Shown here one piece after another: positions 8,997 to 23,459 of a stretch of 23,500 nt of DNA (position 1 is its first letter; each line of letters opens with the position of its first letter). The stretch lies in the IMG/VR virus record IMGVR_UViG_3300010354_002644, positions 1 to 23,500 of that record; one strand, written 5' to 3'. This DNA comes from a virus. The position numbers and the translations under genes are program-made. The notes beneath the pieces are model-generated. The model saw only the letters and a list, made by a program, of their open reading frames with translations, was not told where the DNA came from and did not search any database.

Positions 8997-9431
8997 TCAT
9001 ACCCCCAAGTGATCTTCGGTGAGAATAAGGAATTGCATCTGTCTATCCTCACACCAGTCACTTGCGGCTTCCCATTTCGCTTGGTTTTTTAGAAACGTTA
9101 GGACTTTATCTTTGTATAATTTAGTTTGTTTCTTTGCTGGAGGTGGAGGAGTTGTTTGATTCTTTGGTTTGATTTCAATGAGATACTTTTTGATTTCATT
9201 TGTCTTAGTACGAATTTTAATATAGAAGTCAACATAATACCGATGTACTCTACCATCTAAAGGAGAACGATAGGGTATCACAACTTCCTCACTGCCCCAC
9301 TCGATGACATCCTTATTGCCATCGCAAAATAACATAAATTTTCTTTCCCATAGTGAACGGTACACTATGTTTGTGGGATTTCCTCTATACTTTAAAGGAT
9401 TTGTGGGTTTAAAAAAACCAGAATACGCCAT
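8997..9431 (-). CDS. gp4: gp4-like head completion protein
   Basis: A 144-residue homologue of T4 gp4 (also called gp50/gp65), needed to finish DNA-filled heads so tails can attach. The start MAYSGFFKPTNPLKYRGNPT, then YRSLWERKFMLFCD, IEWGSEEVVIPY and RRYYVDFYI...LIEIKPK, follow the T4 protein closely. The arrangement E48, D68, E86-x-K88 is the PD-(D/E)XK-like core seen in this family and in TnsA-type endonucleases, so nuclease activity is plausible. A Pro-rich linker (94-98) precedes a helical C-terminus ending LILTEDHLGV. It is the first gene of the minus-strand cassette, driven by a late box in the short divergent gap. Confidence 0.88.
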   Translation of the reverse strand: MAYSGFFKPTNPLKYRGNPTNIVYRSLWERKFMLFCDGNKDVIEWGSEEVVIPYRSPLDGRVHRYYVDFYIKIRTKTNEIKKYLIEIKPKNQTTPPPPAKKQTKLYKDKVLTFLKNQAKWEAASDWCEDRQMQFLILTEDHLGV

Positions 9432-9434
9432 AAA

Positions 9435-9442
9435 TATAAATA
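9435..9442 (+). promoter_or_regulatory. T4-type late promoter box (plus strand)
   Basis: A perfect TATAAATA, the T4 late -10 sequence, lies 21 bases before the ATG of the gp54-like gene, in a 32-bp intergenic gap. Such boxes are read by RNA polymerase carrying the phage late sigma (gp55) and gp33. Confidence 0.8.
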
Positions 9443-9456
9443 CACAACCACAAAAG

Positions 9457-9464
9457 TATTTAGA
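9457..9464 (-). promoter_or_regulatory. T4-type late promoter box (minus strand)
   Basis: Reads TCTAAATA on the minus strand, containing the CTAAATA variant found at late promoters of cyanophages. It is about 26 bases upstream of the gp4 start, the usual distance, and points opposite to the TATAAATA box 15 bases away. Confidence 0.6.
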
Positions 9465-10204
9465 TGGGAATTAGTAACACAATAGCTGCTATATCTAGTG
9501 CTGGTGGGGTCGCATATAGTAATAATTTTGATGTAAAGTTTAGATTTAGTGGTCCTTCAAACAAAGTTCAATCCGCTTTGAATTCTGTTGAGATTGATGT
9601 AAATAGACAGACAGGATCTGATGCATCTCAAGGTAAATGGATTAATTTATTTTGCGAAGAAGCAGTTCTTCCAGGTATGCAATCTTCTACTGGAACTATT
9701 ACAGGACGCCACATGGGTGAAGGGCAAGTAAATTATCCTACCAGTAGAATTTTTACTGACTTTTCTTTGACCTGGATTTGTGATGCAAATATGACACCAT
9801 TAAAGTTTCTGCATATTTGGATGGGACAAATATACAGAGAGTATGGTTCCAACGGAGAAGAGTTTGATTATAGTAATAGGTATTATAATAACAGAAGAGA
9901 TGATACACCAGGAAATAACAGGAGTGGTGGTTCATCTTACAGTAGTAACAGATATAATTATGTTAGATTAAATTATCCAGAAGATTATCTATGTGATGAG
10001 GTAATTATAACTAAATGCGAGAAAGGTCCATTTGCAGACAATCAAAGGCAATCTATTTCTATACACTGTGTAGATGTTTTCCCCTACTCTGTTGATGCTG
10101 TTCCTTTATCATATGGATCTTCCCAAATAGTAAGAGTAACAGCAAATTTTTATTATAGTAAATGGTTTTCTACTTTCAATACTCTTTGGGGTAGACAGAC
10201 CTGA
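9464..10204 (+). CDS. gp54: Tail-tube-fold protein, probably gp54-like baseplate tube initiator
   Basis: A 246-residue protein with the strand pattern of the T4 tube fold (gp19/gp48/gp54). An N-terminal FDVKFRFSGPS strand is followed by INLFCEEAVLPGM (compare the F.C..A.LPG turn of gp19), RIFTDFSLTWICDANMTPLKFLHIWMGQI (compare the FDDWTVTVMND...F..W part) and the C-terminal CDEVIITKCEKG...ISIHCVDVFPYSVDAVPLSYG...VRVTANFYYSKW, matching the GL.P strands and final YW. A Tyr/Asn/Arg/Ser-rich loop (about residues 131-167) is inserted. Because gp48 is nearby and the gene lies just upstream of the hub genes, gp54 is the best call; a gp19-type tube protein is the alternative. A late promoter box precedes it. 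Confidence 0.65.
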   Translation: MGISNTIAAISSAGGVAYSNNFDVKFRFSGPSNKVQSALNSVEIDVNRQTGSDASQGKWINLFCEEAVLPGMQSSTGTITGRHMGEGQVNYPTSRIFTDFSLTWICDANMTPLKFLHIWMGQIYREYGSNGEEFDYSNRYYNNRRDDTPGNNRSGGSSYSSNRYNYVRLNYPEDYLCDEVIITKCEKGPFADNQRQSISIHCVDVFPYSVDAVPLSYGSSQIVRVTANFYYSKWFSTFNTLWGRQT

Positions 10205-10211
10205 ATAAATA
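10204..10211 (+). promoter_or_regulatory. T4-type late promoter box upstream of gp26
   Basis: AATAAATA overlaps the end of the gp54-like gene and lies 28 bases before the gp26 ATG. It fits the relaxed NATAAATA late consensus. A nearby TTGACA (10214-10219) has no matching -10 at the right distance. Confidence 0.55.
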
Positions 10212-10239: not shown

Positions 10240-10956
10240 ATGCCATTACCAAAACCTTCCGTACCTGTTTATGAATTGACAGTTCCTTCTACAGGTAAGA
10301 CAATTAAGTACAGACCATTTCTAGTTAAAGAAGAGAAAGTTCTTTTGATTGCTTTAGAATCTCAAGATGAAAAGCAAATGCAGAATGCAATCATGGATAT
10401 TCTCAAGGGGTGCATTCAAACTCGTGGTATTAAAGTAGAAGAGTTATCTATTTTTGATATTGAATATATTTTCCTTAAGATTAGATCAAAATCTGTGGGT
10501 GAAATTGTCTCTATGAAGATAACTTGTTTGGATGATAACACTACATCAGTTACATATGAATTGAATCTTGATGATGTTGAAGTGCAAAAACCAGAAGGTC
10601 ACCATAATAAAATTGATATTGGTGAAGGTATGGGATTAGTCATGAAGTATCCTGGCATGACTGAGTTTGTAAATACTCAAATGATTGGTAAAGATTTGAG
10701 CGCCGAAGAAGTTTTCAATACTATTGTTACTAGTGTTCATCAAATTTATACGGCAGATGAGGTGTGGGAAGCTAAAACAACTCCCAAAAAAGAGATTGAA
10801 CAATTTTTAGATTCACTTACCACTAAACAGTTTGAAGAAATTCAAACCTTCTTTGAGACCATGCCAAAGTTATCTCATACTTTTAAAATTACCAATCCAA
10901 ACACTGGCGTTGAATCTGAATACACCATTGAGGGCTTAGCAAATTTTTTCGGATAA
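10240..10956 (+). CDS. gp26: gp26-like baseplate hub assembly protein
   Basis: A 238-residue protein of the T4 baseplate hub assembly family (gp26). It opens MPLPKPSVPVYELTVPSTGKTIKYRPFLVKEEKVLLIALES, the motif I associate with phage gp26 and related tail chaperones. Conserved parts follow: MDILKGCIQTRG, LSIFDIEYIFLKIRSKSVGE, and a C-terminal EIQTFFETMPKLSHTF region ending GLANFFG. It is expected to act during hub assembly rather than remain a major virion part. Just before the stop is a slippery A_AAT_TTT, and a -1 shift extends the protein by 58 residues into gp51-like sequence, the layout used by tail assembly chaperones in many phages. The gene is preceded by a late box. Confidence 0.85.
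   Translation: MPLPKPSVPVYELTVPSTGKTIKYRPFLVKEEKVLLIALESQDEKQMQNAIMDILKGCIQTRGIKVEELSIFDIEYIFLKIRSKSVGEIVSMKITCLDDNTTSVTYELNLDDVEVQKPEGHHNKIDIGEGMGLVMKYPGMTEFVNTQMIGKDLSAEEVFNTIVTSVHQIYTADEVWEAKTTPKKEIEQFLDSLTTKQFEEIQTFFETMPKLSHTFKITNPNTGVESEYTIEGLANFFG
10941..10947 (+). promoter_or_regulatory. Candidate programmed -1 ribosomal frameshift site
   Basis: In the gp26 frame the last codons read gca aat ttt ttc gga taa. The heptamer A_AAT_TTT (10941-10947) is an ideal X_XXY_YYZ slip sequence: after slippage both tRNAs re-pair on AAA and TTT. The zero-frame stop follows 6 bases later. The -1 frame then stays open to 11123. Confidence 0.7.
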
Positions 10957-11123
10957 GTCTTTTTCATGAATCGTTGGAGAATTTTTATAAATCAAATTTT
11001 AATTTGATGTTTCATCATAAATTTTCTCTAACAGAATTGGATGATATGATGCCATGGGAGAGAGAGGTATATGTTATTATGTTGAACAACTATTTTGAAG
11101 AGCAAAAACAGAAGCAACAGTAA
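10947..11123 (+). CDS. gp51: gp51-like extension of gp26, in the -1 frame
   Basis: Reading from the slip site in the -1 frame gives 58 residues containing SLENFYKSNFNLMFHHKFSL and TELDDMMPWEREVYVIMLNN, ending in a Glu/Gln/Lys-rich tail. This helical segment with the MPWERE motif is what I know as the gp51/tail-chaperone C-terminal piece in T4-like marine phages. Independent start codons are poor: the first ATG in this frame is at 11007 and has no Shine-Dalgarno, and the coding signal clearly begins upstream of it. Fusion to gp26 by frameshifting is therefore favoured over a separate 38-residue gene. The stop overlaps the next gene (TAATG), so ribosomes finishing here would feed the following giant gene. 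Confidence 0.75.
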   Translation, partial: FRISLFHESLENFYKSNFNLMFHHKFSLTELDDMMPWEREVYVIMLNNYFEEQKQKQQ

Positions 11124-14110
11124 TGGCAGAAGAGTCCCAACAAATTAATGACCCCCAAGAAAATTCAAAACCTTCTCCTGTAAATAAAAAGGGGAAGGTT
11201 CTGAAAAAGATTGGGCAAATTTTTAAGGGGAAGATTGCTGCTAAATCCAAAGACAAAGAGAAAGTAATACCAGCACCACCATTAGATAAAAAGTTTATTC
11301 AAAATTTGGTTGACAGTGGAATAGAAAAGAAAATTGCAGATTCCACAGATCAAACTACGCTTGATACAATCATTGATGATTCAAAAGCATTAAAAGAATC
11401 TGACAAGACAGATAAAGATACAAAAATAAAAGAACAGGATTACGGTAAAATTATAGATGCAGGTACAACAGGTTTACAATCTGATGTAGAGAAGGTATCG
11501 CAATCTGTAGATTCTTTAATCAAAGTTAATCAAAGTATTCTTAATAGTACAGAAAACATTGTTAAATGTTTGAACGATATTAAATCTATTCTTCTGAAGA
11601 ATGTTGGAGATGAGAAGCAGAAACTGGAGGATAGTAAAGCAGCAGCTGAAGAAGCATCAATGGATGCTACATCTTCTGCTTCGGGAACACAGCAATATGT
11701 AAAGACATATGATGACACTCCAGGAAATGATAATCAACAGGGGGGTGGACCTAACTTATTTGATAAGGTAGTTGGTGCTGTAGATTTTGCTGATGATGTC
11801 TTTGATATTAGTAGGCATCTAGGTGGAAAGAAAAGAAAAGGTCTTCGTGGTAACAAAGCATATGGAAAGTTTAGAAGAACTAGAGCAGGAAGATTTCTTG
11901 GTGGTAGGTTTAATCTAGCAAGAGGAATTAGAAGCAGAAGAAAATTATCTGAAGGTGCTTTCATGGGTCTTCCTCAACCAGTAATGGTTGGTGAAGCAGG
12001 TCCAGAAATAGTTACACCACCTAAGATGGCTGCTGGTGGATTGAAGGCAGGGGTATATGACAATCCAACAAAAGGAAATCTGCAACCTGGGCAATCAGTT
12101 ATACCATTGAATAGAAATTCTGGCAAGAGTATCGTGAGTCAGAAGGGTGGTATGAAGAAAGAGGGTGAAGGATATGGATTGGCGCAACCATTAGCAACAG
12201 CAATGACAATACCATTCAAAGCAGTTGGTGGTGCATTGTTTGGTATTGCTGCTAGTTTTCTTCCAATGTTGGGTCCATTTGCTGGCATACTAAAACCATT
12301 CTTATCGTTTTTGATACGACCTCTTGGTAAAATACTTGGTGTTTCTCCTCAAGCATTAGATGCTGCTCTTAATATAAGACCATTTGGATTCTCATTTGGT
12401 GAGGTATTTAAAGATATTGCAAAGACATTAAACATAGGTGGTACATCAAAAGTAGATGAAAAAGGTAATGTTAGTAGTAGTGAAGGGAGTGATGTAGGAG
12501 AACCAGAAATGACTGGTCCTGTGCCACAAGGAAATGATGCTGATTTTTGGACACTTGCTGCTATTGCATCCAGAGAAGATGTTAAACCACAGGGAAGTGC
12601 AGACGTTGCTCAATCAGTTTATAATAGAAAAGTTTCTGGTGCTTATGGTGGTAATAGTATAAAAGATTTAATTAATGCTGATAATCAATACGAACCAACC
12701 TTCGGAAACAAAGGAGCATGGAGAGCAATTAAAGATAGGGCTACTGCTATTAAAGCAGCAGGTTCTGCTACAAATGTTGATCAATCTGCGAGAGCAATTT
12801 TAAATCCTCAACTACAATCTAAAGCAAAAAGTTTTGTTCAAGGTAGAACGGATTTTAAAGGTGAGTCACAGAAAGGAAATATGAGAAGAGATAAAGGAGA
12901 TATTACTAGGGGAAGTGGATCTAATTTCTTTGGTTGGCACGCTAATTATAAAGAAAATAAGGTCGGACAAGTTCCAAATTTTAATGTAAGTTTGAAAGCA
13001 GAATCTGGAACAAGCACTGGGTCTGACGAAAGTTCTTCATACATGATTAAGGGACCAAATTCAGGATATCCAATTAAGATTACAACCAATGATGGAGCAA
13101 CAACAGATGTTGTAGCACACGGTAAAGAATCTGTTCATGTAGGTGACTCTGGATTTACAATTCTTCCACACGAAAATAATAAATGGAGTGTATCAAAAAA
13201 TCCATTTGAAACTTTTAATCAATGGAATAGAGTTTTAGATCCTAAAGAATCTAGTGATAGAAATTCTCCCAACAAACCAGCAATGGAAAGTGGAGGTGTT
13301 CATAGAACACCAGTTCTAAATGATTGGAGAGCAGCTACAGCAAGAAGACAAACCAGACAGAATGCTAGGAATAGAACTGCACAGCGAGAGAGATTAGGTG
13401 TATTCCGTGGTTCCAATGGCAGGTGGCAAACGCATGGTGTTAGTGATTCAGCAGTTGGTAGCAATCCATGGTGGCAAGTATGGAATAAAAAAGGAGCAAC
13501 TGCAGAGAGAAGAAGAAAGCAAGAGGCACTTGCCAAATCTCTAGCAGATAGAATGAATAAAGAGGAAGATAATATAAGAAGGTTGCATCCAGCAGCCGCT
13601 CCACAAACTAGGCGTTCATTGCAATCTGGTTCTTCTGGTTCTAGTGGGGGTGGCAAACCTTCTACTACCTCAGCAAAGGCATCAGAACCAAAGGCACCTA
13701 CTCTTGACTCATCTCTAACACCAATGCAAAACTGGGCTAAATTATTCCCAGACCTTGCAAAGAAAGTTAAACCAGGGCAATCTGGATACGATGAGATACA
13801 AGCGTACTTTACTAGACAAAAGTTTTCTGCAATTGCTGGTAAAGGATTTGAAATGGCAGCGAAGGGAGCAACATTTGTATCTCCTCCTGCTAAGGCACAA
13901 ACATATAATGATTTGTTTAAAACTGGTGGTACTACTCCAGCAGCAACTGCTGCAATAACAACAACTGCATTTACTGCAGCAACACAATTGGTTCAAAGTA
14001 AACCCATTCCTTTGCCAGTTCAACTACCCTCACCTCCACCAGCTCCAAATGTTTCAATAAGAGAAACTGTCTGCCAAGTAAGGCAGAGAGATATGCTTTC
14101 TCGTTTATAA
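11123..14110 (+). CDS. Giant tape-measure-like structural protein with SleB-like cell-wall hydrolase domain
   Basis: A 995-residue virion-type protein of the hub block. Order: charged, Lys-rich N-terminus (1-110); helical coiled region (115-180) ending EEASMDAT; Gly/Arg-rich part with a VGEAGPEIVTPPK motif (289-301) typical of tape-measure proteins; hydrophobic segment IPFKAVGGALFGIAASFLPMLGPFAGIL (363-390). Next comes a SleB-like domain (about 474-620) with FWTLAAIASREDVKPQGSAD, VAQSVYNR and an NQYEPTF block, where E485 is the likely catalytic Glu. Low-complexity Arg/Gln and Ser/Gly/Pro/Ala stretches fill the C-terminus. It is paralogous to the next gene. A role in the central tail and in peptidoglycan opening is inferred. 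It starts inside the gp51 stop (TAATG). Confidence 0.7.
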   Translation: MAEESQQINDPQENSKPSPVNKKGKVLKKIGQIFKGKIAAKSKDKEKVIPAPPLDKKFIQNLVDSGIEKKIADSTDQTTLDTIIDDSKALKESDKTDKDTKIKEQDYGKIIDAGTTGLQSDVEKVSQSVDSLIKVNQSILNSTENIVKCLNDIKSILLKNVGDEKQKLEDSKAAAEEASMDATSSASGTQQYVKTYDDTPGNDNQQGGGPNLFDKVVGAVDFADDVFDISRHLGGKKRKGLRGNKAYGKFRRTRAGRFLGGRFNLARGIRSRRKLSEGAFMGLPQPVMVGEAGPEIVTPPKMAAGGLKAGVYDNPTKGNLQPGQSVIPLNRNSGKSIVSQKGGMKKEGEGYGLAQPLATAMTIPFKAVGGALFGIAASFLPMLGPFAGILKPFLSFLIRPLGKILGVSPQALDAALNIRPFGFSFGEVFKDIAKTLNIGGTSKVDEKGNVSSSEGSDVGEPEMTGPVPQGNDADFWTLAAIASREDVKPQGSADVAQSVYNRKVSGAYGGNSIKDLINADNQYEPTFGNKGAWRAIKDRATAIKAAGSATNVDQSARAILNPQLQSKAKSFVQGRTDFKGESQKGNMRRDKGDITRGSGSNFFGWHANYKENKVGQVPNFNVSLKAESGTSTGSDESSSYMIKGPNSGYPIKITTNDGATTDVVAHGKESVHVGDSGFTILPHENNKWSVSKNPFETFNQWNRVLDPKESSDRNSPNKPAMESGGVHRTPVLNDWRAATARRQTRQNARNRTAQRERLGVFRGSNGRWQTHGVSDSAVGSNPWWQVWNKKGATAERRRKQEALAKSLADRMNKEEDNIRRLHPAAAPQTRRSLQSGSSGSSGGGKPSTTSAKASEPKAPTLDSSLTPMQNWAKLFPDLAKKVKPGQSGYDEIQAYFTRQKFSAIAGKGFEMAAKGATFVSPPAKAQTYNDLFKTGGTTPAATAAITTTAFTAATQLVQSKPIPLPVQLPSPPPAPNVSIRETVCQVRQRDMLSRL
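11648..11671 (+). repeat. 24-bp exact repeat, copy 1
   Basis: A 24-base stretch encoding EEASMDAT is identical to one at 14723-14746 in the next gene. It marks the shared N-terminal block of the two giant paralogues. Identity at every base, including third positions, suggests selection on sequence, gene conversion, or a fairly recent duplication. Confidence 0.85.
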
Positions 14111-14118
14111 AATAAATA
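14111..14118 (+). promoter_or_regulatory. T4-type late promoter box
   Basis: AATAAATA lies directly after the stop of the first giant gene and 19 bases before the ATG at 14138. It matches the NATAAATA late consensus, and an AAAAAAGG stretch that may aid ribosome binding follows. The gap is only 27 bases, so readthrough from upstream is also expected. Confidence 0.55.
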
Positions 14119-14137: not shown

Positions 14138-17100
14138 ATGGCATCAGGACTGCAATCATATACCGCTACTTTCAGTGGAGACTTTACCTCATTCATTGCA
14201 GGTAAAGTAATTAATGCAGCTAAAAATGCGAAGCAAGAAAAAGAAAATCAAAAGAAAGCAGAGGAACTGGGGATAGAAGTTCCAGCAGAAGAGAAGAAAG
14301 GATTATTTAAACGAGCATTAGGGTATGAATTTGGTGGCAGAAGATTTGATAGAAATGTTGGACCATTTTTAAAGAATAAATCCAGTGAAGAAGTAAGTAA
14401 CAAATCAAAGTTTGCCGACCAGTTTTCATACACAAAAGCATTAAAGAAGGGAGGTAAAAATAAACCAGTATCTCCTATCAGTACGACTGGTAGAACCACA
14501 ACAAAAAAAGGACAAGGTAGATTTAATTTTACAAAAGGTTTCGGTCAGATAGCATTAGAACTTGAGTTACTTAATAACAAAGTATCTTCTTTAGTTGCAG
14601 TTGCAAATAAACAACTAGGTGCAACTTATAGAACAAGTGGTGGTCTTGCTGGTATTCAAAAGATATTATTAGAGCAGAATAATATTCAAAAAGAAGCTAG
14701 AGATGATGCTAAGGCGCAACAAGAAGAAGCATCAATGGATGCTACAAAAGATACTTCAGCATCTGATGCATACAAATCTACATTTGACCAGACACCAGGA
14801 TGGAATGACGAAACTGGGCAACCAGAACCTATCGCTCCCGCTGGAGGTGGACCTGCTGTTCCTGAAGGAGAAGATGGAGGTGGTGGAGGACTAGGTAGTA
14901 TCCTTGATATCGCAGATACTGCATTAGATTTAGGCAAAACTGTCAAGGGATTGGGAAAACGAGGAGCAGGTAGAGCATTAACTAGAGCTGGCGCTGCAGT
15001 TGGTGGTAAACGAGGCGCTAAAATTGGTAGCAAAGTTGGTGGTTTTGGTTCGAAGTTTTTTGGTAAGGCAGGAAGTAAAGCAGCAGGCAAAGGAATAGCA
15101 AAGGCAGCAGGCAAAGGTATTGCTAAGGGAGTAGGCAAATCATTAGTTAAAAAGATACCAATCATAGGAGCGATTGCTGGTCTAGGATTCGGCATCCAGA
15201 GGGCGATGCAAGGTGACTGGTTGGGCGCTGCAGGCGAGGTAGCATCTGGTGTGGCATCGACAGTCCCAGGAGCAGGAACAGCGGTCTCAGCGGGCATTGA
15301 CGCCGCTCTGATAGGTAAGGACGTTGCTTCTGAAGCATCACAACCACAGGCAGAGGGTGGTGTGATGCCTTTATCCAGTGCAGTAAGTAAAAACATTCTT
15401 CCATCATTGATACCTGGCATCGGACCTGCTCTTGCTACTGGCATGGCAATGAATGATATGAGTGGTGGAGCAGTTGAGGATGCAGCAAAGATGCCATTCA
15501 AGGCAGTGGGTGGTGCTATGCTTGCTGTTACTTCTGGATTCATTAAGGCACTCGGACCTGTTGCTGGATTAGTTGCTCCAATGATTAAACAGGAGACAGC
15601 TCCACTGGCAAGATTATTAGGTATGCCTTCATCTCTTGTTAAGTTTGGTGGTATTGGTGGTGCTGCGCTGCAGTCATCTTCGGCGGCACAAAAAGAGGGC
15701 ATGAATTTCTTATCTAATTTTATGAACAGTGCTCTGGAAAAATTAGGTTTGAAACCAAAGAAAGAAGAGAAGCAATCCTCTGGCGGTGGTGGAGGTGGAG
15801 GTGGTGGAGGTGGTGCCCCTGCTGATGACTCTGCCGATGCAAGTGAAGGCGGTGGAGGTGGTGGAGCACCTACGCCAGAGCCAGGTAAACGTTTTATGAC
15901 AGCAGATGAGTTTGCTGCTAAAACTATGAAAGAAACTCAGCTCAAAGAAGTTGCTGGTGCTAGAGGTTCGACGCAACTAGTAGCTGATACTGGAAACCTA
16001 TCTCCTGTTAACGATGCTGAAGAAGGTAAAGCAACAAATTATTATCATGATATGTTTGGTCAAGTATATAAGGTAGACCAGAAAGCACAGAAACTTGTTA
16101 GAGTTACACAAAAAGAATTAGAAGCAGGAGTTCCACAAGAGGGAGCAAAAGGATTACTGTTTAGCAACAAACAATTCTTCAGAAAACCAGACAAGAATGT
16201 AGTTGTCGCCAATCTACAGTCAGCACCAATAGATTCCATAGAACTTGGCAGCAAAAAGATAGTTAAACAATCACGCATGGGCAAAGCATTGATGGCACCC
16301 ACTGATGAAGATAAAAAGAAGTTTGGTATTGATTCTATCAAAACTCCATACGGTGCTTCTTCTGCTCCCGCTCCTCAAATTCAAGCAGCATCAGGTGTTA
16401 CTCTTACTTCAAATAGCAATAGAGGAAACGAAAGATTGACTCCAGGCAAAACATTTTCTTTCGGGCAACTTGGACCCCATCATAGTGAAGAGGGAGTGTT
16501 TAGATCATATGGGAAATATAAAGTTGGATATCCTAAAGATTATGGTATTGGAGTTGCTCCAAATTATATGCCATCTGGTCCTGCTAATGGATTAATACCA
16601 TCACCTTTGCCAGCAGAAGTTGTGGCTAAAGATCCAACATCTGTTTCTGGTGGATACGGTAACACTGTAGTTTTAAAAACTTCAAAAGGTTACATGCAAT
16701 TCTCCCACCTTAGTGCTTTTGGTTCATCTATTAAAGTAGGTTCTAGAATATCGGCTGGCACTGTGATAGGTAGACAAGGAAACACAGGAAATTCTGGAGG
16801 AGAACATCTTCACATGAATGCCACAAAGGCAGGGCACGAAGCATTTATTAATTATATAACAACTGGTAAACCTATAAGTGGTTCTGCTGCAGAAGCTGAT
16901 AGTGGAGCTGATATGTCAGGAGAAGATTCTGGAACTGAACCACAAGAACCAGTAGATCCAATGCAATCACTTCAACAAACTGTTGCTGCTGCTTTATCAG
17001 GAGTAGCAAAACTAAGAGGATTATCTGAAGGCAAATCGTGGGAAGATGTACAAGCAGAACCAGATAAATCATGGGATGAATGGATGAATCCATCAAATCC

Positions 17101-17368
17101 AAGTGCTACTGCTCCTGCTGGTAAACCATCGACCAATAAACCAGACGTTAAGCCAGGTGCAACATCTCCAGCAGCAACAGCACCACCAGCAAAGCCCAGT
17201 CGCCCGCCAGCAGCTGCTCCATCGGCAGTTTCTGCTGCTCCATCATCATTTGTTCCACTTCCAATGGCAAGTGCAACTCCTGGCGGTGCTGGTTCTTTCC
17301 ACGTCAGAGCAACTGACATTGGAACAGCAGAAAGTTTAAGACCACAATTAGCATCTTACATAGGATAA
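14138..17368 (+). CDS. Giant tape-measure-like structural protein with M23 peptidase-like domain
   Basis: A 1076-residue paralogue of the preceding gene. It shares the EEASMDAT block (196-203) and the MPFKAVGGAMLAVTSGFIKALGPVAGL segment (452-478). Other parts are Ala/Gly/Lys repeats (309-340), a hydrophobic Gly-rich hairpin IPIIGAIAGLGFGIQRAMQGDWLGAAGEVASGVASTVPG (340-378) that could enter a membrane, poly-Gly linkers (549-559, 571-576), and an M23/LytM-like domain (about 800-905). That domain has the QFSHLS strand, GxxIGRQGNTGNSGGEHLHM and ligands H857, H890 and H892. The usual first motif HxGxD reads D801-Y-G-I-G805, so two zinc ligands look lost. The C-terminus is Pro/Ala/Ser-rich. Probably a tail-hub protein that meets the cell wall; enzymatic activity is uncertain. 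Confidence 0.7.
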   Translation: MASGLQSYTATFSGDFTSFIAGKVINAAKNAKQEKENQKKAEELGIEVPAEEKKGLFKRALGYEFGGRRFDRNVGPFLKNKSSEEVSNKSKFADQFSYTKALKKGGKNKPVSPISTTGRTTTKKGQGRFNFTKGFGQIALELELLNNKVSSLVAVANKQLGATYRTSGGLAGIQKILLEQNNIQKEARDDAKAQQEEASMDATKDTSASDAYKSTFDQTPGWNDETGQPEPIAPAGGGPAVPEGEDGGGGGLGSILDIADTALDLGKTVKGLGKRGAGRALTRAGAAVGGKRGAKIGSKVGGFGSKFFGKAGSKAAGKGIAKAAGKGIAKGVGKSLVKKIPIIGAIAGLGFGIQRAMQGDWLGAAGEVASGVASTVPGAGTAVSAGIDAALIGKDVASEASQPQAEGGVMPLSSAVSKNILPSLIPGIGPALATGMAMNDMSGGAVEDAAKMPFKAVGGAMLAVTSGFIKALGPVAGLVAPMIKQETAPLARLLGMPSSLVKFGGIGGAALQSSSAAQKEGMNFLSNFMNSALEKLGLKPKKEEKQSSGGGGGGGGGGGAPADDSADASEGGGGGGAPTPEPGKRFMTADEFAAKTMKETQLKEVAGARGSTQLVADTGNLSPVNDAEEGKATNYYHDMFGQVYKVDQKAQKLVRVTQKELEAGVPQEGAKGLLFSNKQFFRKPDKNVVVANLQSAPIDSIELGSKKIVKQSRMGKALMAPTDEDKKKFGIDSIKTPYGASSAPAPQIQAASGVTLTSNSNRGNERLTPGKTFSFGQLGPHHSEEGVFRSYGKYKVGYPKDYGIGVAPNYMPSGPANGLIPSPLPAEVVAKDPTSVSGGYGNTVVLKTSKGYMQFSHLSAFGSSIKVGSRISAGTVIGRQGNTGNSGGEHLHMNATKAGHEAFINYITTGKPISGSAAEADSGADMSGEDSGTEPQEPVDPMQSLQQTVAAALSGVAKLRGLSEGKSWEDVQAEPDKSWDEWMNPSNPSATAPAGKPSTNKPDVKPGATSPAATAPPAKPSRPPAAAPSAVSAAPSSFVPLPMASATPGGAGSFHVRATDIGTAESLRPQLASYIG
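14723..14746 (+). repeat. 24-bp exact repeat, copy 2
   Basis: The second copy of the block encoding EEASMDAT, identical in all 24 bases to 11648-11671. It sits at the same relative place, between a helical N-terminal region and a Gly-rich segment, in the paralogous giant gene. Confidence 0.85.
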
Positions 17369-17372
17369 ACAA

Positions 17373-18800
17373 GTGTCAGTACTCAATTATAATCTAGAAG
17401 CAATAGAACTCTACAGTGTAGATAATAAAAAACTAGTCATCAATGATTTGATGGTGGAGCTTAGCATCTATGAGAGTATCTTATCTCCTTTCATGACAGC
17501 ATCTTTAATTCTTGCTGACTCTGGTAAAAATATTATTGGCACGTTACCTATACAAGGAAATGAAAAGGTGGTAATTAAAATATCCACACAGGCAGCGCCT
17601 GATAAAAAATTTGAATATAATTTTGTAGTATTTTCTGTGAACAATAGATTTACTAGTGGAAAAATTCAGATGTATGAATTGAAACTTATAACACAGGAGG
17701 GATTGGCAAACGAAGCATTGAGAATAGGCAAAAAACTAGAAGGATATGGTCATGAGATTGTTAATGATATAATGAAAAATATTATTAAAACTGACAAGAA
17801 GATAGTTGCTGATGACAATTGTAAATTTAAGATGAAATTTATTCCAGCAAATAAAAGACCATTTGATTTGATATATTCTATGGCACCTAAATGTATTTCA
17901 TCTAAAGCAAATCCATCAGCAGAAGAAGGCAAAGGTAATCCAGTTTCTGCTTCTGCATCTAGTACACCAAGCACTGCTAGTGCAACTGCTGGAAAGATGA
18001 AAGGAACTGCAGGATATCTTTTCTTTGAAACTTATGATGGATATATTTTTAGATCTATAGATAAATTATGCTGCGATGGTTCTAGCGATCCTAATTTTGG
18101 TGGCGTACCACCTAAAGCTACGTTAGAGTTTGCAGTTGCTGCAGATGATAAGAGTACACCAGAAAGTAATGCATTAAAGATATTAGAATATACATTCGAT
18201 AACGAACTTGATATCATGAAACGAATGCGTATGGGAACATATTCTAGTTTGGTTGTGTTTTTTAATCCAAGCACAGGATACTATGAAGAGTATGTCTATT
18301 CTTTATCGAATACATATGATAGTATGGTTCACATGGGGTCTGCAGATAAACTACCAAAAGGTCAGAAAGAATTATCTGGTTATCCAACTAGAATCATGAC
18401 ACAATTTGTTGATCACGAAACATTTTATAATGATACTGGCACTGCTTCTCCAGAAAAGAAGGATAAGGGGACAAATCCAACACAATATCCAGATTGGAAA
18501 AAGTTCTTCACTGCTCAATCTATAGGAAGAATGTCATTAATGACAAATCAGGTGTTAAATATAACTATACCATGTAATTTAACTTTGAGAGCAGGTGATA
18601 AGATTGAAGCGTTGTTACCAAATGCTAGTCAAGAAGAGGATAGAAAGACACAAAAATATGATGAGGAACACAGTGGTGTGTATTTAATACAGGATATTTG
18701 TTATCAGTTTAGAAGAACAGATGGTAGTAAATCTTATACTAGTATGAAAGTTGTACGCGATTCCTATGGTATGAAAGACAAACCAAGTAAGGTAAAATAA
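17373..18800 (+). CDS. gp27: gp27-like baseplate hub protein
   Basis: A 475-residue hub protein comparable to T4 gp27, the trimeric torus that carries the gp5 spike. The N-terminal domain has LVINDLMVELSIYESILSPFMTASLILADSGKNI and then IPIQGNEKVVIKIST-like strands, the usual tube-like hub start. The final part, LNITIPCNLTLRAGDKIEALLPN...SGVYLIQDICYQFRRTDGS, matches the last hub domain of gp27-type proteins (strand, GD.I.., YLI..I.H.F). A Ser/Ala/Thr-rich loop lies near residues 185-210. The start codon is GTG with AGGA 7 bases upstream. Position before the gp5-like gene supports the call, although overall similarity to T4 gp27 is too low to be sure by eye. Confidence 0.65.
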   Translation: MSVLNYNLEAIELYSVDNKKLVINDLMVELSIYESILSPFMTASLILADSGKNIIGTLPIQGNEKVVIKISTQAAPDKKFEYNFVVFSVNNRFTSGKIQMYELKLITQEGLANEALRIGKKLEGYGHEIVNDIMKNIIKTDKKIVADDNCKFKMKFIPANKRPFDLIYSMAPKCISSKANPSAEEGKGNPVSASASSTPSTASATAGKMKGTAGYLFFETYDGYIFRSIDKLCCDGSSDPNFGGVPPKATLEFAVAADDKSTPESNALKILEYTFDNELDIMKRMRMGTYSSLVVFFNPSTGYYEEYVYSLSNTYDSMVHMGSADKLPKGQKELSGYPTRIMTQFVDHETFYNDTGTASPEKKDKGTNPTQYPDWKKFFTAQSIGRMSLMTNQVLNITIPCNLTLRAGDKIEALLPNASQEEDRKTQKYDEEHSGVYLIQDICYQFRRTDGSKSYTSMKVVRDSYGMKDKPSKVK

Positions 18801-18801
18801 A

Positions 18802-19014
18802 ATGGAAAACATTCATCAACACATCGAACACGATAGAAAAATTGTAGGTGATGCACAGACATCTCCACAACAAAGAAGACATGCAAAAGAAGAATTGGAA
18901 TCTCTAGAGAGATATCATGCTAGACATCCAGAGGATGAGCATGACCCATCTGCTTTAGAATTATATTGTGATGATAATCCAAACGCTTTAGAATGTAGAA
19001 TTTACGAAGATTGA
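18802..19014 (+). CDS. CP12-like small protein in the baseplate module
   Basis: A 70-residue protein whose last part, YCDDNPNALECRIYED (55-70), is the C-terminal CP12 motif. C56 and C65 have the CX8C spacing of the redox-active loop that lets CP12 bind GAPDH and phosphoribulokinase, switching off the Calvin cycle. The N-terminal half is helical, His/Glu/Arg-rich and carries no second Cys pair and no clear AWD..EEL core, so it resembles C-terminal-only CP12 variants. cp12 is a known auxiliary metabolic gene in cyanophages, but here the gene lies between the gp27-like and gp5-like genes, one base from each. It could be a virion-linked or injected CP12, or a structural protein that borrowed the motif. 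Confidence 0.72.
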   Translation: MENIHQHIEHDRKIVGDAQTSPQQRRHAKEELESLERYHARHPEDEHDPSALELYCDDNPNALECRIYED

Positions 19015-19015
19015 T

Positions 19016-21865
19016 ATGTTATCAGAATTTACTTTACCGACTAACTTTGCTGGGCGCGACGGGTTCTATTGGTGGATAGGGCAGATAGAATCTGACGATA
19101 AAGGATTAAAGCAAGCAAATAGATTTAAGGTGAGAATTGTAGGTCATCACTTACGAGATTGTAATGCGGTAAAGACAGAGGATTTACCATGGGCTCAGGC
19201 GATGTTGCCTGTTACTACTCCATACTCCACAGGAAATAGTTCTGGTGCTACTGCTAACTTTAAGCAGGGCGATTGGGTTGTAGGATTTTTCTTGGATGGG
19301 CATGAAGGGCAGCAACCTATTATCATGGGTTCTATTGGTGCAGTTCCAAATGCTACTAACGACAAACCAAAACAAGATCCAAATCCTGGAGAAACATGTA
19401 AAGCATTTACTACATTCACTAGAAAAGATTTTAATCCTGCAGCAGATCAACCAGGAAAAACAGAAGCACAAGATAAAAACAAAAACCAGGCAGGAGTTCC
19501 ACCTGCAGCTGGAGGAAATGCAACTGCACCAAATACATTACTTGCTCTGCCATGTGATAATTCTGAAGCGAATCCTTTTGGAAATCAATTCTGTGTTACT
19601 TTAGCTGATGCACAATGCAGTGAAGATCCTTCAAGTGCATTCGAAAGAATACTAAGTGAGTTGTTTTTAAATGTGCAAAATTCTAATGGAAGAATTGGTA
19701 GTTATTTAATCAGTAAATACACTGGTCAATTATTTAATTATGTCAATGTTGCTCAAGGTTATATTAATAGAATCTTGGGTGTGTTGGGCAACATAATAGG
19801 ATATCTAAAAGGAGAATTGACAAAATTAATCAGACAAGGGGTTGATGCGGTACTAAAAGCTATCCTAACACCAAAGAATGGTGGACTCAAATCAGTTATT
19901 GAGTTCATGAAAAAACAACTAGAAAAAATTGGTTGTACTTTGGATGGATTACTCGACCGATTAATTTCTTGGTTGACAAATTTAATTATGAATTGGATTA
20001 CTCAAATTATTAATGCTGCTACATGCCAAATCGAAAATTTAGTTGCAGATACAATAAGTCAATTACAGAGTGCATTGAACGAAGCAGTTGCTAGCATACT
20101 AGGTTCTCTTCAATCAATATTGGGTGCTATTGCTGTTCCATTAGATCTGATAGGCAGTGCAATGAAATATGTCATGGATCTATTGGGGATAACATGTACT
20201 GGATTAGGTAAATGTAATAAAAATAAAGAAAGTTGTTCTCAAGCTCCAAAGAAAAAAAATCAAAACAAATTGGATGAAATATTATCCGCTTTAGAAAATG
20301 GACAGGGTGCAGGTAGAGGATATTGTTCTGATGCTTATGAAGAACCAGACACGATACCAACAGATGTTGTATTTGTTGGTGGCGATCCAGTTACCCCAGA
20401 AATACCTGATGGAACAACTACAGGTGGTGCAGGAGAAACAGTTCCATCGTACACTCTTACTGCTGATAGACACGAAGCATCAGAAGGAGATACAATTACT
20501 TATTTAATTTCAACTACAAATATACCTGATGGCACATCATTAAATTATGAATTAGTATTACAGAACGGTAATGTTGCAACTGAACTTGCTGGAGATGCTG
20601 CAAGCGGTACTCTAACAATCAATGCTAACACTGCTACTAGAGTAATTACTGTCATAGATGATACTGTGCAAGAAGCTTCTGATATATTAACATTTAATTT
20701 GTATGATATTGATACTAATATAACAAGTCAAGTAGATGTTACTATTTTGTCATCTGATGTACCAAGTGCTACATTTACTCCAGTTAGTTTGATAACAAAT
20801 AGTATTGTAAATATAAATTTAAGTTCTCTTTCAAAATATACTTCTTCTACTTTTGTTTCATCTCCATCAAACTCTCCTCTTGTACCTAGTTCTTGGTCTT
20901 ATGTTATAAATGGCGGACAAAGTTCGTTTGCAAACATATCATCAAAATCTGGCGCTAAAGTTACTGCAAATATTCAAACTGTTTCTTCAATACTTACTCC
21001 AACTTATGCTGTTAGAGCAGACAGAAGAATTGTTTATGAAGGAGATCAAATAATATTTACAATAACAACAACAAATGTTGCAGATAATACTGTATTAAAT
21101 TACACTATGTTTGGTTCTGGTATACAAAATTCTGACTTTGTATCTAATACAAACATTGGTAGTTTTTATATCTTCAATAATACTGCTACAGTTACAGTAA
21201 ATATTGCTGAAGACAATACCATAGAGGGGATTGAAAATTGCGTATTCGCTGTCGATAATACTGGTGCTCAAATTGATTTCAGTATCATAGGAGTTCCCCC
21301 ATCTAATCCTGTTGTTGTTACGCAACCTGATATAGAAGATCCAGTAGTATGTGAACCAGACGTAGATGAAAATGGAAGCATTTTAAGTATAGATATATGC
21401 TCCAAGGGTACTCAATATAATTATCCACCCAATGTGTTAATAACTGGTACTGGGTTTGGTGCTACTGCTACTGCTGTATTAGATGAAGATGGATACGTCA
21501 CAAAAGTAAATGTGTTAACACCTGGGGTTGGTTATCAACCAAATAGTACTGGTAGAAATTGTATTATTACTGGTTTCAATTTGATACGACCAGGAGTAGG
21601 ATATAGTTCTGCACCAACTGTATATGTAGATGGAGATTCTAGCATAGTCAAAGCAAAAATACAAGATGGAAGAGTTGTCGGTTTTGAAGTTGTAAATAAA
21701 ACAAAAGTTTTTACTTCTTTCCCTGAGGTAGAAATTTTTGGTGATGGATACGGTGCATTAGCAATTCCATTTATTGGTTGCGTTCCAGATGAAGAACTAA
21801 ATACAATCGAAACTCAAACTGTAGCAGAACTTAGCACTAGAGGTTCTTATGTTGATTGCCCATAG
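19016..21865 (+). CDS. gp5: gp5-like hub protein: OB fold, helical insert, two Calx-beta-like domains, no lysozyme
   Basis: A 949-residue protein. Residues 14-112 match the OB domain of T4 gp5: FYWWIGQIESDDKG, NRFKVRIVGHHL, EDLPWAQAMLPVTTPYSTG and VVGFFLDGHEGQQPIIMGSIG. The T4 lysozyme domain that should follow is missing. Instead come a long helical, partly hydrophobic stretch (205-400), a Cys-rich linker (384-437), two Calx-beta-like domains (about 478-578 and 662-760, each with an EGD motif and a TV.I..D...E.......F.......D ending) and C-terminal GVGYxxxxP repeats (787-920) often seen in cyanophage structural proteins. It would sit on the gp27-like trimer. The Calx-beta parts suggest Ca-dependent or surface-binding adhesion. 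The missing spike helix is supplied by the next gene. Confidence 0.75.
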   Translation: MLSEFTLPTNFAGRDGFYWWIGQIESDDKGLKQANRFKVRIVGHHLRDCNAVKTEDLPWAQAMLPVTTPYSTGNSSGATANFKQGDWVVGFFLDGHEGQQPIIMGSIGAVPNATNDKPKQDPNPGETCKAFTTFTRKDFNPAADQPGKTEAQDKNKNQAGVPPAAGGNATAPNTLLALPCDNSEANPFGNQFCVTLADAQCSEDPSSAFERILSELFLNVQNSNGRIGSYLISKYTGQLFNYVNVAQGYINRILGVLGNIIGYLKGELTKLIRQGVDAVLKAILTPKNGGLKSVIEFMKKQLEKIGCTLDGLLDRLISWLTNLIMNWITQIINAATCQIENLVADTISQLQSALNEAVASILGSLQSILGAIAVPLDLIGSAMKYVMDLLGITCTGLGKCNKNKESCSQAPKKKNQNKLDEILSALENGQGAGRGYCSDAYEEPDTIPTDVVFVGGDPVTPEIPDGTTTGGAGETVPSYTLTADRHEASEGDTITYLISTTNIPDGTSLNYELVLQNGNVATELAGDAASGTLTINANTATRVITVIDDTVQEASDILTFNLYDIDTNITSQVDVTILSSDVPSATFTPVSLITNSIVNINLSSLSKYTSSTFVSSPSNSPLVPSSWSYVINGGQSSFANISSKSGAKVTANIQTVSSILTPTYAVRADRRIVYEGDQIIFTITTTNVADNTVLNYTMFGSGIQNSDFVSNTNIGSFYIFNNTATVTVNIAEDNTIEGIENCVFAVDNTGAQIDFSIIGVPPSNPVVVTQPDIEDPVVCEPDVDENGSILSIDICSKGTQYNYPPNVLITGTGFGATATAVLDEDGYVTKVNVLTPGVGYQPNSTGRNCIITGFNLIRPGVGYSSAPTVYVDGDSSIVKAKIQDGRVVGFEVVNKTKVFTSFPEVEIFGDGYGALAIPFIGCVPDEELNTIETQTVAELSTRGSYVDCP

Positions 21866-21875
21866 GAGATAATAA

Positions 21876-23054
21876 ATGGCAGCGTCATCGTCATACAATA
21901 ATGCTCTGAATTTATTTGAAACAAATCAAACAAGCATTGCTAATTCTACTACACCAGCTACTGGTCAGTGTGCTGAAGCATTTACTACTGCACAAAAACC
22001 ATCTAATGTATCTGTAGTAAGACAGAGTGGAATCACTGAAGTAAAAGCAAAAAATGATCAGACAGGAACTATACAATATAGAATTGTATGTGACAATGGA
22101 CCTAACTTTGGTATAGATGAGAGTGGTGCTATAGTATTAGTTAGTGCTAAAACTCCACCAGATAATAATGAATCGGGGCATTTCAAATGGAGATGTGCTG
22201 GCAAAACTATCTGGAAAATAGGGAACGAATTACATATAGAAATAGAAAATAAAGCAAAGCACGAAAACCCACTATCAATTTACATTAATGGTAACGTAAA
22301 TATCAAAGCAGAGGGCGGTAATTTAAATCTTGCTGGAAAAAATATTAGTATTAATGCAGCTGATACTTTAACATTAAATGCTGGCAGAAATGTTCAAATA
22401 AATGCTGGTCAAGGTGGATCATCTAGCACTGTTAAAGCAGTTACAAATGCATTGAATGGTGTTGACGCTGGTACTGCTGGCGGAAAAATAGAATTAAATG
22501 CAGGAGAAGTTGTACAAAAATCTAGTGCAAAAACTAGTAATGTAAATGTTACTTACGAAAATATTTCTTCCGAAAGAGCATTGGAAATGAAAGATCCTAG
22601 AGGAACTTTTAAGATAGGTTCTTTAGGTCATATGGAATTTTCTGTGACAGGTGATTACATAGAAACTGTTTATGGAAAAAAATCAACAAAGATTTTCGGC
22701 AAACCATCGCTGCCAATGCCACATCCTAGTGCTCCATTAGATACTACATGGGATATTCAATTAGGAGCATCTAGTGTATCACCATATGATTTGAAAGTCA
22801 AAGCTTTGAAAGGATCTCTAGACATTCAAACAGTTGCAGGAAAATTTGATCTTAAAACAGCATTAGATGTCACAGTTTTGAGTACAAGTGGAGGACTATT
22901 TAAATTATCTTCATCAAATTCAGGTATCAATGCATATACAAATTTAGTTCTCAGAGCGACTGGTATTGCACAATTTGGTACAGCAAGTGCAAGTTATATG
23001 CAAACAGATTCTAGCGGCACAAAAATGATTGCTCCAGCAATTTTCTTAAACTAA
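21876..23054 (+). CDS. Beta-helix spike protein (gp5 C-terminal-like)
   Basis: A 392-residue protein with short repeating beta-strand units characteristic of the trimeric beta-helix of T4 gp5. Residues 132-178 carry PLSIYINGNVNIKAEGGNLNLAG, KNISINAADTLTLNAGRNVQINAG, and residues 300-392 a second run (LKVKALKGSLDIQTVAGKFDLKTALDVTVLST). Between them are a globular insert and GTFKIGSLGHMEFSVTGDYIETVYGKK, which matches spike-base segments of this family. It probably forms the cell-puncturing needle that in T4 is fused to gp5. The ATG has AGGAG 8 bases upstream and follows the gp5-like stop by 10 bases, so the pair is coordinately made. No PAAR-type tip is visible. Confidence 0.7.
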   Translation: MAASSSYNNALNLFETNQTSIANSTTPATGQCAEAFTTAQKPSNVSVVRQSGITEVKAKNDQTGTIQYRIVCDNGPNFGIDESGAIVLVSAKTPPDNNESGHFKWRCAGKTIWKIGNELHIEIENKAKHENPLSIYINGNVNIKAEGGNLNLAGKNISINAADTLTLNAGRNVQINAGQGGSSSTVKAVTNALNGVDAGTAGGKIELNAGEVVQKSSAKTSNVNVTYENISSERALEMKDPRGTFKIGSLGHMEFSVTGDYIETVYGKKSTKIFGKPSLPMPHPSAPLDTTWDIQLGASSVSPYDLKVKALKGSLDIQTVAGKFDLKTALDVTVLSTSGGLFKLSSSNSGINAYTNLVLRATGIAQFGTASASYMQTDSSGTKMIAPAIFLN

Positions 23055-23192: not shown

Positions 23193-23381
23193 ATGAATCT
23201 CCAAAATCCTTCTGAACAAGCTCTTGACACCATCTCGATAGACCTGTATAATAAGAAGGTCTTCATCACTGGGTCTGAAGGAACCTCTCTAACCTTCAAA
23301 TGTGCTACAATCAATGAGTTGGTTGAACTAAAGCAACAATGTGCTAAACTCCTCAGAACTAAACATTTCTTAGTTCGTTGA
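23193..23381 (+). CDS. Small protein of unknown function upstream of tRNA genes
   Basis: A 62-residue protein. The start is the ATG at 23193, with GAGG 9 bases upstream; an in-frame TTG at 23178 would add five residues and lacks support. The sequence looks like a compact beta-strand part (ISIDLYNKKVFITGSEGTSLTFKCATI) followed by a Leu/Lys helix (NELVELKQQCAKLL) and a basic end. I know of no function; similar small proteins occur in T4-like cyanophages, as far as I recall. The stop is one base from the first tRNA, so the gene and the tRNAs are probably one transcript from the promoter at 23135. Confidence 0.65.
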   Translation: MNLQNPSEQALDTISIDLYNKKVFITGSEGTSLTFKCATINELVELKQQCAKLLRTKHFLVR

Positions 23382-23382
23382 T

Positions 23383-23455
23383 GCTCGATTAGCTATCTGG
23401 TGAAAGCACCCGACTCATAATCGGATATAGGTGGGTTCGATCCCCTCATCGAGCA
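23383..23455 (+). tRNA. tRNA with CAT anticodon (Met, or Ile2 if modified)
   Basis: The acceptor stem GCTCGAT/ATCGAGC is a perfect 7 bp with discriminator A. The D stem is GCT/AGC. The anticodon loop is CTCATAA (anticodon CAT) on a 4-bp CCGA/TCGG stem with one C-A mismatch at its top. The T loop is TTCGATC on a GTGGG/CCCTC stem with one T-T mismatch. CCA is not encoded. A paired first base argues against initiator tRNA. Elongator Met or lysidine-modified Ile(CAU) cannot be told apart by eye. Confidence 0.85.
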
Positions 23456-23459
23456 CTCT

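Follow-up and report, generated by a model that had tools for sequence, protein, structure and literature searches.

A cp12 gene in the standard hub slot of a T4-like cyanophage and its likely late expression

Introduction

In solved structures, the C-terminal end of CP12 sits with GAPDH. Oxidised CP12 forms complexes with GAPDH and PRK (PMC8699064), and the published model for cyanophages proposes that phage-encoded CP12 lowers Calvin flux (PMC3037559, PMC5082946). According to Sullivan et al. (2010), 15 of 16 cyanophages carry cp12 and a gene hot spot lies close to gp5 (PMC3037559); the T4-GC15 tail protein has been reported from the S-SM1 virion (PMC3037559). With regard to timing, measurements place the cp12 gene of P-HM2, a copy located outside the hub, in the middle cluster (PMC5082946). 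The cyanomyovirus late promoter has been described as NATAAATA (PMC2984593), and PMC2988020 ties T4-type late transcription to the replication clamp gp45. Within the limited body of literature that we searched, no explicit wording presents cp12 as a member of the hub operon.

Here we analyze a 23.5-kb viral record (the window, meaning the whole stretch of DNA under analysis) that carries cp12 between two hub-region genes. Our results show this gene to be an already known auxiliary metabolic gene at its usual position and reveal a promoter split between spaced and packed hub copies of cp12, which is the new point of this analysis. We consider it fairly probable that the standard-slot cp12 of the window is expressed late with the hub operon and yields a free CP12 that lowers Calvin flux via GAPDH.

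Results

The window follows a T4-like gene order. Minus-strand genes for a ssDNA-binding protein and for gp53-, gp48- and DNA-end-protector-like products are followed by a tail-tube gene (9464-10204; PF23849, E=5.9e-41), a gp26-like gene (10240-10956; PF12322, E=1e-70), two large hub-region proteins, the T4-GC15 tail gene, cp12, gp5 and a further baseplate protein. The first large protein (11123-14110, 995 aa) resembles Hydrolase_2 (cell-wall hydrolase) only weakly, with a score under the cut-off, matches no PHROG convincingly, and adjoins the second, a 1076-aa protein with a peptidase M23 domain (14138..17368, plus strand; PF01551, E=5.9e-12). After 4 nt, the T4-GC15 tail (hub) protein of 475 aa begins with a GTG codon (17373..18800, plus strand; PHROG 350, E=2.5e-111). 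The cp12 gene (18802..19014, plus strand) starts with ATG and encodes a 70-aa CP12-domain protein, separated by one base from the tail gene and by one base from a 949-aa gp5-like baseplate hub/tail lysozyme protein (19016..21865, plus strand; PHROG 1922, E=4e-180; Pfam Gp5_OB, E=2.9e-6). A 392-aa baseplate-type protein (21876..23054, plus strand; PHROG 4540, E=2.9e-26) is the last gene ahead of the non-coding end of the window. The one-base packing on both sides agrees with a preliminary description of this DNA, which had called the neighbors gp27-like and gp5-like; the second assignment is borne out by PHROG 1922, while the first is reasonable by position but finds no match to gp27 models in the 17373-18800 product, which falls in PHROG 350 (‘tail protein’). 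Downstream of the hub operon lie a perfect sigma-70 consensus (23224-23252; TTGACA, 17 nt, TATAAT) and a tRNA-Met (23383-23456). A search of the phage collection with the hub region returned no close DNA relative.

The 70-aa product matches Pfam PF02672 over essentially the full domain (E=9.2e-15, residues 2-69, model positions 3-70 of 70), with a score of 55.6 bits against a cut-off of 22.7, and also matches PHROG 627 (E=3.1e-26). Its C-terminal end, YCDDNPNALECRIYED, contains C56-X8-C65 with a GAPDH-binding-type flank; these are the only two cysteines in the protein. The closest solved sequence is the cyanobacterial CP12 of 6gfo (E=1.5e-7), and the C-X8-C region aligns with the CP12 of both 6gfo and 3zdf. 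Phage records matching the product number 372, all with names denoting cyanophage, Synechococcus, Prochlorococcus or marine virus. The Pfam match, these 372 records and the 6gfo alignment reject chance similarity to CP12, and 18802-19014 is accordingly classified, on its sequence, as a genuine cyanophage CP12 and an auxiliary metabolic gene, in line with the CP12 motif noted previously. Structure prediction, which had been put forward as a check, yielded an AlphaFold2 model with a mean pLDDT of 93.5, composed of a helical hairpin, a third helix (helices 4-16, 22-41 and 51-58) and a C-terminal loop, with the C-X8-C end. The top PDB fold match was the GAPDH-CP12 complex 6gfo (probability 0.97, E=7.8e-3, TM 0.38), a result that is weak when taken alone, and nothing besides the CP12 entry stood out when the fold search was inspected for likeness to tail-tube or hub structures.

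Of the features of classical CP12, the N-terminal cysteine pair is missing from the window protein. So is the AWD_VEE core, described as a classical CP12 feature (PMC3906501); the aligned stretch reads RRHAKEEL, in which EEL is kept and AWD is gone. Because both elements are missing, the protein does not classify as a classical CP12. It groups instead with the CP12 of marine Synechococcus and Prochlorococcus, since these are built alike, with the C-terminal pair only. Among 61 distinct 72-aa picocyanobacterial CP12 sequences we observed the pattern H-I..D, RH..EEL, EY..HHPED..HDP..LEL(Y/F)C, EC, again with the C-terminal pair only; the combination of RH..EEL, HDP..LEL(Y/F)C and a lone C-terminal pair is present in these 61 host sequences, in 22 phage sequences and in the window protein. 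We therefore assign the window protein by its sequence features to the marine picocyanobacterial kind of CP12.

The location of cp12 had been regarded as surprising, on the expectation that the gene would accompany other metabolic genes rather than virion genes, and a comparison of synteny had been suggested. Among 16 public cp12-bearing genomes examined, 13 carry cp12 between the T4-GC15 tail gene and gp5 (DSL-LC03, S-T4, S-RIM50, P-SSM4, Syn19, S-RSM4, Syn10, S-SSM7, DSL-LC02, S-SZBM1, S-CREM1, S-SM1 and Syn9, where cp12 is annotated only as gp17 and was named from its position and because it matches the copy in Syn10). As in the window, the T4-GC15 tail gene lies upstream of cp12 in other cyanophages, and gp5 follows either directly or after intervening CpeT, 2OG oxygenase or tRNA genes. 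The three exceptions, with cp12 outside the hub, are P-HM2, S-TIM5 and S-TIM54, and in both P-HM2 and P-SSM2 the tail gene abuts gp5, leaving an empty slot. When IMG/VR loci were anchored on the tail gene alone, to avoid bias, cp12 occupied the slot in 53 of 68 readable loci and the hub genes abutted in the remaining 15; some tree loci labelled as empty are contigs ending near the tail gene. A further 27 IMG/VR cp12 loci, found among the best 80 matches to the motif query (a non-random sample), were classed as other than hub. The T4-GC15/gp5 junction is the standard home of cp12 in T4-like cyanophages, and the public genomes, the IMG/VR loci and the published gp5 hot spot make its location in the window ordinary; the idea of an unusual location is rejected on the 13 genomes and 53 loci that share the slot. 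These phages commonly carry metabolic genes amid their virion genes, as illustrated by petE, PTOX, gnd and zwf between gp16 and gp17 in another structural region of S-SM1 (L197, record positions 100439-103892).

To score late-type promoter elements we used the motif [ACT]TAAATA, with spacing calibrated in P-HM2 and S-SM1, where it concentrates 26-35 nt upstream of start codons. At this spacing the motif precedes 17 of 78 structural genes versus 1 of 47 replication/nucleotide genes in the two phages combined, the classes being assigned by us from annotation. The hub cp12 test set comprised 120 distinct loci, divided into spaced (gap of at least 18 nt; 66 loci) and packed (tighter; 54 loci). The motif was found 26-35 nt before the cp12 ATG in 60 of the 66 spaced loci versus none of the 54 packed loci; shuffled controls gave a mean of 2.4 and a maximum of 8, and the six spaced exceptions include three (L216, L224 and L262) with badly called starts or divergent N-termini. 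Packed copies have spacers of at most 15 nt, free of the motif, and in 10 loci cp12 overlaps the tail gene by 4 bases. Mapped onto a tail-protein tree, the gap state switches roughly 10 times and the motif roughly 7, so the split does not reflect a single lineage, and among eight independent pairs gap and motif differ together in 5-6 and never in the opposite sense (p ~0.03). The motif is also present, at -27 to -31, before the non-hub cp12 of an unplaced phage group recovered among the best 80 matches to the motif query. Ten loci of this group (L034, L046, L059, L061, L071, L074, L087, L092, L095 and L110) carry a near-fixed sequence like AAATAAATATTATCATCACGATACAAAAC upstream of the cp12 ATG.

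The window is of the packed type, with gaps of 4, 1, 1 and 10 nt from ORF 14138 onward. Late-type elements, all on the plus strand, occur as two overlapping copies of ATAAATA (9430..9442) before the tail-tube gene, as ATAAATA at 10205..10211, starting 35 nt before the gp26-like gene, and as ATAAATA at 14112..14118, starting 26 nt before ORF 14138, the gene that opens the inferred transcription unit. The last of these is the nearest upstream late-type element for cp12; directly before cp12 the motif is absent, and the gap is too small to hold one. An own sigma-70 promoter was considered and rejected, as matches near 18771-18803 reached 9/12 and the count for the region was 54 against 48.5 expected from shuffles. 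Between 14112 and cp12, scans for sigma-70-like promoters and for the late-type motif returned nothing above background. Given the lack of an own motif, the tight gaps and the ATAAATA at canonical spacing before ORF 14138, the simplest reading is that cp12 is most likely co-transcribed with the hub genes from the element at 14112; a promoter internal to the 1.4-kb tail gene may also exist. The motif alone is no proof of late timing, since the P-HM2 cp12 has ATAAATA at -31, overlapping a TTGACA box, yet is middle-expressed. The late timing put forward in the preliminary description nonetheless fits this context, which predicts late expression through elements at canonical spacing before hub genes, with none at cp12 itself, and we regard late expression of the window cp12 as likely.

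The cp12 gene is under purifying selection, with a median dN/dS of 0.27 in packed and 0.16 in spaced copies. Of 53 packed variants, 52 preserve the C-X8-C motif; the remaining one is a truncated ORF. In one packed subgroup (L243-L249, L257, L268 and L272) the N-terminal half is rewritten (M-E-L-Q...) while C-X8-C is intact, and most members have 3-4 cysteines. The CP12 match of L063 (1765-1974) carries a 62-residue N-terminal extension, for a total of 132 aa, possibly reflecting a fusion or an in-frame ORF upstream. Phage-type 75-aa cp12 genes were also found in L121 (NZ_RMVE01000006.1, 188,235 bp, the size of a cyanophage genome), L112, L113, L123 and L141, which are assigned to Nonlabens xiamenensis or Euryarchaeota MAGs and are probably admixed cyanophage contigs.

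Discussion

The arrangement of the window suggests a mechanism in which cp12 would be expressed, at the level of both transcript and protein, as part of the late hub operon driven by the element at 14112. By analogy with the CP12 family, the product would remain free in the infected cell, where its oxidised C-terminal loop would bind host GAPDH. Calvin-cycle flux would then fall, mainly through GAPDH, during late transcription, and NADPH and sugar phosphates could serve phage nucleotide synthesis. Since T4-type late transcription is linked to the gp45 clamp, CP12 output might be highest at peak phage replication. For hub copies at large, the proposition that cp12 is a late gene, with about half of the copies examined using their own late-type promoter and packed lineages coupling it to hub proteins, strikes us as evenly balanced.

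A different timing is suggested by P-HM2, whose auxiliary metabolic genes, cp12 among them, fall exclusively in the middle cluster (PMC5082946), and by the occurrence of cp12 outside the hub in P-HM2, S-TIM5, S-TIM54 and the 27 IMG/VR loci drawn from the best 80 matches. The gene could accordingly be a middle-phase one with a promoter that our scans do not recognise and a hub position devoid of regulatory meaning. We hold this to be rather unlikely: the P-HM2 copy is itself non-hub, its tail gene abuts gp5 and the P-SSM2 slot is empty too, so the middle-phase data are silent on hub copies, and the short, motif-free spacers of packed copies also speak against it.

The tight packing of cp12 between two hub genes, with 4-base tail-gene overlaps in 10 loci, and the report of regulatory proteins of other kinds in cyanophage virions (PMC10665884) could instead be read as signs of a CP12 that is incorporated in the tail hub, or injected along with it, and that targets host GAPDH from the onset of infection; packaging or injection with the tail had been raised as a possibility before. 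Yet the S-SZBM1 virion proteins identified by mass spectrometry include the tail protein encoded next to cp12 (536 aa, S-SZBM1_65, matched to its gene by length) and another protein of 87 aa, whereas CP12 is not among them, a weak negative given that the table also lacks gp5 and that CP12 is small. CP12 is likewise missing from the table of S-CREM2 virion proteins, again a weak negative for so small a protein. Spaced copies carry their own promoter-like element, some phages keep cp12 away from the hub, and the window protein remains close to host CP12, with the host architecture retained. Packaging or injection thus lacks support and is unlikely; in this specific form we consider it highly improbable. 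Equally hard to credit is a conversion of the CP12 fold into an assembly or spacer protein of the hub devoid of metabolic role. The packed subgroup with a rewritten N-terminal half and mostly extra cysteines would fit such a change, but C-X8-C is retained even there, the window protein still shows the pattern of picocyanobacterial CP12, and 15 of 68 hubs dispense with cp12.

If hub cp12 is indeed late, the Calvin cycle would be shut late, in step with replication, rather than in the middle phase as measured for the non-hub copy of P-HM2. Although cp12 is among the commonest cyanophage metabolic genes, its middle-phase timing derives from a phage with the copy off the usual locus. The promoter split predicts late synthesis from the common hub cp12, which would alter models of when carbon fixation stops in infected cells.

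Compared with described systems, the window cp12 belongs to the same family as cyanomyovirus cp12 (T4-GC337; S-T4, DSL-LC03, DSL-LC02, S-SSM7, S-RSM4, Syn9 and S-SM1), with at most 67% identity, and those loci share the upstream tail gene, with gp5 directly next or after a short insert. The window is packed, with 1-nt gaps and no late-type motif of its own, and S-T4 and DSL-LC03 are also of the packed type. A motif-bearing spacer precedes cp12 in S-SM1 (SSM1_018), Syn19, P-SSM4 and S-RIM50, where, unlike in the window, a CpeT or tRNA gene is often inserted before gp5; the hub cp12 of Syn9 has a spacer too. The P-HM2 cp12, next to talC, is of the same family (55.7% identity) and has ATAAATA at -31, but it lies outside the hub, its motif is overlapped by TTGACA and it is middle-expressed. 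The CP12 of 6gfo has a nearly identical C-terminal GAPDH-binding segment (YCDDNP.A.ECRIY.D) and a helical N-terminal half in common with the window protein, which differs in having no N-terminal cysteine pair and no AWD_VEE core. Marine Synechococcus and Prochlorococcus CP12 (e.g. WH7803, 72 aa) resemble the window protein over the full length (~46-54% identity), sharing the C-terminal pair only, the RH..EEL core and the HDP..LEL(Y/F)CD..P...EC end; the phage form is distinguished by its 70-aa length, by DP..SPQ.RRH in place of the host loop and by being encoded in a virion operon.
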